Assembly (NCBI GenBank): GCA_903875465.1
Contig: CAIQWB010000148.1
Span: 1-60,509 of the forward strand
DNA: 60,509 nt
Source: an uncultured Verrucomicrobia subdivision 3 bacterium
Lineage (GTDB): Bacteria > Verrucomicrobiota > Verrucomicrobiia > Limisphaerales > UBA11358
Direction of reading: 5' to 3'
The position numbers and the translations under genes are program-made. The first letter of the stretch is position 1. Each line of letters begins with the position of its first letter. The notes under the pieces are model-generated. The model was not told where the DNA came from, ran no database searches, and worked only from the letters and a program-made list of their open reading frames with translations. Below are positions 35,119 through 36,934 of the stretch, in pieces.

Positions 35119-35279
35119 GCGGCGGCAATATTGCGCACCGTGGCGAAAATAGCCAATCAAATGCACCTTTATTGCCCGGGCCCATGGTAAAAAACGAGAA
35201 TGACGTTGACCCACCGGGGTTTTTGGCGCAAGGTTACCGCTGTGAATTTGAAATCCGCCACGCCGCTGTTTGTAGCCAA

Positions 35280-35385
35280 CCATGCTTGGTTTGCATGGCT
35301 GCGTGTCCTGCCTCGGTCGGGTTTTCAAATCAATTAACCAACGATTTTATCCAAAAACCCGCCAGGAATTTCCGGCGGGTTTTTT
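35280..35385 (+). promoter_or_regulatory. Structured leader with antiterminator/terminator switch before the DMT gene
   Basis: Four elements can be read directly. (1) A 6-bp stem CCATGC/GCATGG (35280-35285, 35293-35298) with the 7-nt loop TTGGTTT. (2) The loop segment TTGGTT is complementary to AACCAA at 35336-35341, which would allow a pseudoknot. (3) CGGGTTTT at 35318-35325 is a perfect 8-bp complement of AAAACCCG at 35354-35361. (4) The latter overlaps the left arm of an intrinsic terminator (35358-35385). Pairing 3 and the terminator are mutually exclusive. The gene's ATG is 46 bp further on. No known riboswitch class is recognised and no promoter is clear. Confidence 0.5.
35358..35385 (+). 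terminator. Intrinsic terminator upstream of the DMT transporter
   Basis: CCCGCC-A-GG pairs with CC-GGCGGG around an AATTT loop, followed by six T. An A-run on the other side makes it potentially bidirectional. On the plus strand no gene ends before it, so it must end a leader or a small RNA starting in 35119-35357. Confidence 0.85.
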
Positions 35386-35431
35386 ATTTCCCCGCCGGCA
35401 TTTTTGGCCAGCCAACCGGAAAACCAAATCA

Positions 35432-36352
35432 ATGAATGCCCGCCTCACCCCCCAAGATCGCCAAGCCCGCACCTGGATGCTCGTGGCTTTCGCGATTGTT
35501 TACACCGTCTGGGGTTCAACCTATCTGGCCATCCGCGTGGCGGTGGCCACCCTGCCCCCCTTCCTGCTGGCCGGCATCCGCTTTTCCGTGGCGGGGCTGG
35601 GGCTGCTGCTCTGGCTGCGGCTGCGCGGAGTGACCTTGCCCACCGCCCGTCAATGGGGCCATGCGGCCGTGGCCGGCGGCTTGTTGCTACTGGGCGGTAA
35701 TGGCCTGGTGGTCTGGGCGGAACAGACCGTGCCCTCCAATCTGGCCGCGCTGTTGGTGGCCCTCACCCCCGTATGGTTCGCCCTGCTGGAATGGGCCCGC
35801 CCCACCGGGGTGCGCCCCACCTGGCAGACCGCCACGGGCATCGTCGTGGGCTTTAGCGGCATCGCCTTGCTGATGGCCGGGCGGCCGCCACTCCAGCCTG
35901 GGGAAACCATGAATCCTTGGGGATTACCCGCCCTGGTGCTCGCCGGGGTGTGCTGGGCGGCGGGATCATTATGGTCGCGCCATCATTCCCGGCCAGAATC
36001 GCCCTGGATGAATGCAGCGGCGCAAATGTCGTGCGGCGGCATGGCTTTGCTGATGGTGGCCGTCCTGCGGGGTGAGCCCAGCCAGTTTCACGGCCATGCC
36101 GTGGCCACGCGGTCATGGCTGGCGTTGCTGTACCTGGTGGTGTTTGGTTCCTGGATCGCCTTCAGCGCTTACGTCTATTTATTGAAGGTGAGCACCCCGG
36201 CGCGGCTGGCCACGTATGCGTATGTGAATCCGGTGATTGCCGCGATCCTGGCGTGGCTGATGCTGGGGGAAACGTTAACCCGGCAAACCCTCTGGGCCGC
36301 GGCCATCAGCCTGGCGGGAGTGGTCATTACCACCCTGCCGCGGCGGGAATGA
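35432..36352 (+). CDS. EamA/DMT-family transporter
   Basis: A 306-aa integral membrane protein with ten predicted TM helices in two EamA repeats: AFAIVYTVWGSTYLAIRVAV begins repeat 1 and LVLAGVCWAAGSLWSRHHS repeat 2. The C-terminal YAYVNPVIAAILAWLMLGE is the usual end of YdcZ/RhaT-like exporters. It probably exports amino acids or other small metabolites; the substrate is unknown. The ATG at 35432 is chosen because the open frame upstream runs through the leader and terminator. It is likely controlled by attenuation in its leader. Confidence 0.88.
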   Translation: MNARLTPQDRQARTWMLVAFAIVYTVWGSTYLAIRVAVATLPPFLLAGIRFSVAGLGLLLWLRLRGVTLPTARQWGHAAVAGGLLLLGGNGLVVWAEQTVPSNLAALLVALTPVWFALLEWARPTGVRPTWQTATGIVVGFSGIALLMAGRPPLQPGETMNPWGLPALVLAGVCWAAGSLWSRHHSRPESPWMNAAAQMSCGGMALLMVAVLRGEPSQFHGHAVATRSWLALLYLVVFGSWIAFSAYVYLLKVSTPARLATYAYVNPVIAAILAWLMLGETLTRQTLWAAAISLAGVVITTLPRRE

Positions 36353-36619: not shown

Positions 36620-36680
36620 ATCGTGGTGAACGAGCAAAGGAATCGAGGAAAATAGCCGGTCAAACCAGCTAAACGGAGCA

Positions 36681-36712
36681 TAAAATACACCAGCCCGAAG
36701 TAACCGGGCTGG
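36681..36712 (-). terminator. Terminator downstream of tRNA-Ala
   Basis: On the minus strand CCAGCCCG (36712-36705) and CGGGCTGG (36697-36690) form an 8-bp stem with a 7-nt loop, followed by a T-rich stretch (TGTATTTTA). It lies 43 bp beyond the tRNA 3' end. Confidence 0.65.
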
Positions 36713-36754
36713 CTTGAGAATTTACTAGTCCCAAAACTAACGCTCGCTGAAGGA

Positions 36755-36830
36755 TGGTGGAGCCGACAGGGATCGAACCTGCGACACCCACAATGCCATT
36801 GTGGTGCTCTACCAACTGAGCTACGACCCC
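36755..36830 (-). tRNA. tRNA-Ala (anticodon GGC)
   Basis: Read on the minus strand: acceptor stem GGGGTCG/CGGCTCC with one G-U pair, D-arm TAGCTCAGTTGGTAGAGCA, anticodon stem CCACA/TGTGG with loop ATGGCAT (anticodon GGC, reading GCC/GCU), T-loop GGTTCGATCCC, discriminator A and an encoded CCA end. All arms pair, 76 nt in total. Confidence 0.96.
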
Positions 36831-36848
36831 ATCCGGAGCGGGAAACAA

Positions 36849-36874
36849 ACTATACTTTTGCCGCCATTTGTCAA
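36849..36874 (-). promoter_or_regulatory. Possible promoter of tRNA-Ala
   Basis: On the minus strand a perfect TTGACA (36874-36869) is followed by TATAGT (36854-36849), which ends 18 bp before the tRNA 5' end. The spacer is 14 bp, shorter than the usual 16-18, so the pairing of the two boxes is uncertain. Confidence 0.4.
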
Positions 36875-36910
36875 AACTTTTTAAAGAAGTTTTTGAGATG
36901 CCGGGCAGGT

Positions 36911-36934
36911 GCATAAAACCCTTAATTTTAAGGG
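36911..36934 (-). terminator. Weak hairpin overlapping the GH2 stop codon
   Basis: CCCTTAA and TTAAGGG (36919-36934) form a 7-bp stem with a 2-nt loop; on the minus strand GGG is followed by TTTTAT. The hairpin includes the TAA stop of the GH2 gene (36928-36930) and could end its transcript before the tRNA. Confidence 0.45.

Follow-up and report, generated by a model that had tools for sequence, protein, structure and literature searches.

Upstream of the gene for an EamA/DMT transporter in a verrucomicrobial genome lies an element which, judged from sequence comparison, is probably a ribosome-mediated (leader-peptide) transcription attenuator; on balance, the signal that it reads would be the charging of tRNATrp. 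The element was found in a stretch of 60,509 nucleotides (hereafter the window) from an uncultured Verrucomicrobia subdivision 3 bacterium. Comparison supports the attenuator because an upstream ORF (uORF), its in-frame Trp codons, a matched R2:R3 duplex, a terminator and their position relative to a TTGAC box all recur; transcription, translation, their coupling, the signal and the substrate of the transporter are inferred. The features of the window are as follows.

35206..35211, plus strand: TTGACC, the −35-like box of the putative leader promoter; the TTGAC box is kept in most of the curated leaders
35242..35337, plus strand: predicted leader-peptide uORF MNLKSATPLFVANHAWFAWLRVLPRSGFQIN, GTG start, TAA stop; from orthologue comparison
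35280..35298, plus strand: 6-bp hairpin CCATGC-TTGGTTT-GCATGG; part of the uORF, not conserved
35287..35289, plus strand: first Trp codon, TGG, with a proposed regulatory role; in-frame TGG occurs in all non-redundant DMT leaders
35296..35298, plus strand: second Trp codon, TGG, its first base 18 nt before R2; in-frame TGG conserved
35314..35332, plus strand: R2, 5' strand of the antiterminator, in the last uORF codons and containing CGGGTTTT; from the R2:R3 duplex
35343..35365, plus strand: R3, 3' strand of the antiterminator, made of the left arm of the terminator and the preceding 10 nt; from the R2:R3 duplex
35353..35385, plus strand: intrinsic terminator AAAAACCCGCC-AGGAATTTCC-GGCGGGTTTTT, T-run to 35385; from the fold and its conservation before orthologues
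35432..36352, plus strand: controlled gene, EamA/DMT transporter, ATG at 35432; PF00892, YedA-like

The uORF is 31 codons long and its GTG at 35242 stands 36 nt past the TTGAC box. As this start coincides with the predicted transcription start, the uORF is apparently leaderless, for which there is a precedent in the trpL transcript of Sinorhizobium meliloti, described in PMC7298713 as beginning with its ATG. The −10 candidate of the window, CAAGGT, 17 nt from the −35-like box, is weak, which was counted against the attenuator, and a sigma-70 scan of the window called no leader promoter. Given the conserved TTGAC box before the uORF, a transcript that begins only after 35385 is unlikely.

The original prediction had described a riboswitch-like leader, composed of a hairpin with a loop pseudoknot followed by alternative antiterminator and terminator pairings. 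Inspection of the sequence located every one of these elements where they had been placed, including AACCAA, the complement of the loop, at 35336–35341, and the complementarity of CGGGTTTT (35318–35325) to AAAACCCG (35354–35361); the uORF, within whose final codons CGGGTTTT falls, had been missed. The fold of 35240–35400 was better than those of all 200 dinucleotide shuffles (z −2.35), the R2:R3 duplex of the window amounts to −14.7 kcal/mol, and the antiterminator/terminator pair proved to be real, mutually exclusive and conserved before orthologues. The terminator at 35353–35385 was absent from the list produced by the program's terminator scan of the window. The hairpin with its pseudoknot fared differently: both are present in the window, and the fold of 35270–35345 is at chance level (z −0.23; 74 of 200 shuffles equally good). 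This hairpin is coded by uORF codons H-A-W-F-A-W, both Trp codons of the window among them; when the codons of the uORF were shuffled, one of equal size arose in 152 of 2000 trials, and 11 of 50 related leaders have one. A hairpin together with a 6-nt loop complement is rare by chance (6 of 5000 mononucleotide shuffles), and was found in two of the 50 leaders, that of the window included. Thus, among orthologous leaders, the R2:R3 helix and the terminator are kept and the 5' hairpin and pseudoknot are not.

At gathering score, an Rfam search of the whole window returned one tRNA only and no family at the leader, in agreement with the earlier view that the leader fits no known RNA class. Searched by E-value, the segment 35150–35480 gave sub-threshold matches alone, mostly over the terminator, the best being RcsR1 on the minus strand (27 bits versus 60); the terminator is nearly symmetrical. 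Scores against the Rfam families representing the same kind of element as the window leader, Trp_leader (RF00513), Leu_leader (RF00512) and His_leader (RF00514), were 18.1, 16.1 and 18.2 bits, far below the gathering scores of 41, 50 and 49. No conserved aptamer emerged from Rfam or from the leaders, and Trp codons are conserved in frame, so that a metabolite-binding transcriptional riboswitch, with which a mutually exclusive antiterminator and terminator and a fold that needs no protein would agree, appears largely refuted by the comparative data and is very improbable. What stood of that proposal was a transcription attenuator before the EamA/DMT gene.

The transporter belongs to the EamA family (PF00892) and is YedA-like (NF008432, 258 bits, below the cut-off of 270); a PDB search with its sequence gave no match. 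At E ≤ 1e-60 the protein was found in 51 of 320 genomes of the order. It was found in 53 of 384 genomes of the class, 14 of these 53 belonging to the same order, and 80 further relatives, the closest from a Verrucomicrobia MAG, were taken from named genomes across many phyla. Once identical upstream regions were dropped, 168 of 176 loci were kept, and 65 of the 168 upstream regions contained a terminator hairpin by a simple test. When the DNA of relatives was searched for the leader, the best-scoring matches were mostly terminators of the same shape, which made this search useful only when combined with gene position. By hand curation, homologous leaders, whose presence upstream of orthologous DMT genes the original prediction had asked about, were found before the DMT gene at 41 of 51 loci of the order and in 9 of 39 further class members. 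These 50 leaders form the curated set, for which frames containing Trp were picked, unlike in the Trp-blind scan described below. The leader is lacking at eight of the 49 informative loci of the order (L129, L139, L140, L141, L143, L148, L151 and L157; L149, on a short contig, and L150, masked, were excluded) and in 30 of the 39 further class members, both of which were counted against the attenuator. One class member, L201, whose contig breaks off so that just the tail of a leader is seen, was not counted.

From 5' to 3', the shared anatomy consists of a TTGAC box, a start codon, an ORF, its stop, a G+C-rich hairpin with a T-run, and the DMT gene. The box was found in 45 of the 50 curated leaders, with the start codon 36–43 nt after it in 39 of these 45, and where it was found the ORFs are 28–54 codons long. 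One exception, counted against, is L131, in which the ORF stop falls inside the terminator. At six loci (L155, L156, L158, L159, L160 and L168) an ORF of about 60–67 codons separates the leader from the DMT gene and looks like the first gene of a two-gene unit with it. Kinship among these ORFs is shown for L155 and L156 only, a search of 313 genomes found the 66-aa L156 protein in just four, and a Pfam search with the small intervening proteins returned no family. At L205 no convincing gene was seen.

This arrangement bears on two other readings of the locus. An independent small RNA, or a bare terminator between divergent genes that leaves the DMT gene uncontrolled, would agree with the near symmetry of the terminator, and an attenuated leader would yield a short RNA too; but leader and terminator precede the DMT gene in most genomes of the order that carry it, and the order leader, small ORF, DMT gene recurs at the six loci, which makes this reading improbable. 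That ATG 35282 is the true start of the transporter, the leader being its N-terminal extension, draws on a frame open from 35282 to 36352. Its translation would, however, cross the terminator, and the corresponding frames of the two nearest orthologues (328 and 330 codons from stop to stop) end short of the uORF, so that we regard this reading as barely credible.

The Trp codons were assessed by a scan blind to Trp, in which each of the 168 loci was searched for TTGAC, a start codon 34–46 nt further on, an ORF of 24–60 codons and a terminator. In the 40 loci that qualified, a short predicted ORF thus precedes a terminator, and every one of the 40 ORFs contains Trp. Start codon excluded, TGG is the sole codon common to all 40 leaders, followed by GCC in 39 and others in at most 34. 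After removal of near-identical leaders, all of the remaining 34 have an in-frame TGG, versus a mean of 13.9 in shuffles that preserve codon position, none of which reached 34 in 2000 trials; in the other two frames TGG occurs in 22 and 19 of the 34. Several observations were counted against a special role for Trp: Val and Ala, as amino acids spread over many codons, are likewise present in all 40 leaders; ORFs without a detected terminator have Trp at 7 of 9 loci; and DMT leaders have one to three Trp codons each, whereas typical Leu or Val leaders have more of their cognate codons. With respect to position, TGG starts 10–40 nt upstream of R2 in 45 of the 50 curated leaders.

R2 lies at the 3' end of the uORF in most leaders and is matched to its own R3. 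The mean energy of the R2:R3 duplex was −22.4 kcal/mol for own pairs, −18.2 when R3 was swapped between leaders and −15.9 when R2 was shuffled, own R3 being better than swapped R3 in 42 of the 50 leaders; among the 34 non-redundant leaders the same holds for 28 (Wilcoxon p 1e-6). Both strands vary in step between leaders, as in GGCGATGGG with CCCATCGCC and GGCGGTGGG with CCCACCGCC. With a ribosome placed at the Trp codon the antiterminator had a mean energy of −21.0 kcal/mol, and with the ribosome at the stop, −0.7; the gap was at least 6 kcal/mol in 49 of 50 leaders, although, the Trp codon having been picked by its place before R2, this shows geometry and not codon identity. In the leader of the window, the antiterminator forms as long as R4 is still unmade (−14.4 kcal/mol), while folding of the complete leader favours the terminator; kinetics would thus decide the outcome.

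In the mechanism that we propose, ribosomes would begin at the very first codon of a transcript from about 35240 and make a short peptide. A fast ribosome would reach the stop and cover R2, leaving R3 free for R4, and the resulting R3:R4 terminator would halt transcription before the DMT gene. A ribosome pausing at the Trp codons (35287 and 35296), most likely from scarcity of charged tRNATrp, would leave R2 free to pair with R3 before R4 is made, allowing the polymerase to read into the transporter gene. Why a shortage of an amino acid should induce an exporter is not obvious, which was counted against the proposal; the signal would suit a transporter that takes up Trp or a relative, and equally one that exports a Trp antimetabolite.

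Leaders of other amino acids served as an internal control. A covariance model, R1, built from 45 of the 50 DMT leaders was run over 59 genomes, and sets of 30, then 39, then 40 were fetched from among the matches listed. Besides DMT leaders, R1 retrieved leaderless leaders of the same layout, Leu-rich before leuA and Val-rich before ilvB, among them the leuA leader peptide MNRNLNLLLTNALLNGAAVGF in the window's own genome and ilvB leaders such as MLKNVSQAVILVVVVVSDAVGAC and similar ones. The 40 further matches comprised 24 leaders (18 Val-rich and 6 Leu-rich), 13 without a leader and 3 doubtful cases. NCBIfam identified five downstream genes, as 2-isopropylmalate synthase (L306, L222 and L212) or acetolactate synthase (L310 and L358, both cut by the fetched stretch, with TIGR00118 scores of 530 and 447 versus a cut-off of 538); the remaining leuA and ilvB genes were named from their first residues alone. 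Many genomes of the order have leuA or ilvB with such leaders and terminators (L209–L226 and L351–L389). The genome of the window itself holds leaders for leuA (L306, contig C23), ilvB (L310, C122), a 112-aa protein (L307, C26) and the DMT gene. Since the Leu- and Val-rich leaders code for the product of their own pathway, the simplest reading of the Trp codons in DMT leaders is that they are regulatory too.

The 112-aa protein, for which Pfam gave no family, was found in 50 of 59 genomes, behind a leader with a Trp codon (L307 and L321–L350). Twenty-nine of 32 loci could be aligned over the last 22 codons, leaving out L323 (other frame), L340 (short) and L346 (contig edge). Exactly one Trp is present in this block in 28 of the 29 leaders, at codon −15 from the stop in 20, −19 in seven and −8 in one; all seven leaders of the −19 group have Cys at the usual Trp site. 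The sole leader without Trp, L322, was counted against the Trp reading. A single Trp that shifts its site suggests that the codon matters more than the place. Substitutions at codon positions 1, 2 and 3 numbered 308, 406 and 452, a slight third-position bias which points to no strong protein-level selection and was counted against; translation of these leaders stays a prediction. An MFS gene occurs in 36 genomes, from 30 of which loci were taken, with upstream sequence for 28 (L391–L420). A leader ORF and terminator were found at 15 of the 28 and Trp in 12 of these 15, so the Trp signal is weaker here, and the three leaders without Trp were counted against. In the window's own genome the MFS gene (L407, G000:C115) has a terminator and a single-Trp ORF in front of it.

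The expected target of Trp control, trpE, had a leader with terminator at none of 30 loci, and any terminator-like hairpin at five; this absence weighs against the Trp reading. It is one of the reasons, together with the one to three Trp codons per DMT leader and the presence of Ala before 34 of the 78 Trp in these leaders, for keeping a rival in which the attenuator is the same and the stall comes from ribosome-targeting drugs or another arrest, Trp marking a favourable arrest context; the Ala residues, explicable by such a context, were counted against the tRNATrp reading. The exporter-like families among the targets (DMT, and MFS L227 and relatives) and the three MFS leaders without Trp agree with a drug-dependent stall, as does the precedent of bmrB-bmrCD in Bacillus subtilis, where, according to PMC4191407, read-through into the genes of a drug transporter depends on the translation of a leader peptide; that system differs in being antibiotic-stalled, in its ABC transporter and in its Firmicute host. 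Yet the peptide sequence of the leaders is otherwise poorly conserved, the substitution pattern of the 112-aa leaders is unlike that of a peptide kept for its sequence, their Trp shifts by 4 or 7 codons and is still single in the examined block, and leuA and ilvB follow leaders of this layout that are rich in Leu and Val. We consider a drug-dependent stall rather unlikely, and charging of tRNATrp remains the preferred signal.

The element resembles the trp operon attenuator (trpL) of E. coli and S. meliloti in its short Trp-codon peptide and its antiterminator competing with a terminator. It is unlike trpL in that its target is a YedA-like DMT transporter and not trpE, that the family has one to three Trp in about 30–50 codons, and that the antiterminator strand lies within the end of the uORF. 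It also resembles the leu and ilv leaders of the same genomes, which share the TTGAC box, a leaderless uORF with R2 at its stop, and the terminator, and differ in their Leu- or Val-rich peptides and biosynthetic targets. As a tentative proposal, which may well prove wrong, the order could read shortage of charged tRNATrp through dedicated leaderless attenuators on DMT and MFS transporters and small proteins (about 112 and about 60–67 aa), and not on trpE, a response to Trp starvation or Trp antimetabolites wired to transport beside ordinary attenuators for Leu and Val that are built alike.

The attenuator reading predicts a trigger for an uncharacterised DMT transporter family and for the small 112-aa protein, and makes the function of the transporter approachable through the signal that switches it on; leaders for Leu, Val and Trp that share a single, simple leaderless plan coexist in one order. 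Among the papers listed by a literature search from which subscription journals were mostly absent, none was recognised as an account of a Trp-codon attenuator on a DMT transporter or of this leaderless family in this group. The attenuation principle is classical, familiar from amino-acid operons; its use on a DMT transporter appears new.

Around the locus, the divergent neighbour gene encodes a histidine phosphatase, and an 81-aa ORF called on the minus strand at 36669–36914 overlaps the tRNA-Ala gene at 36755–36830 and is probably spurious.
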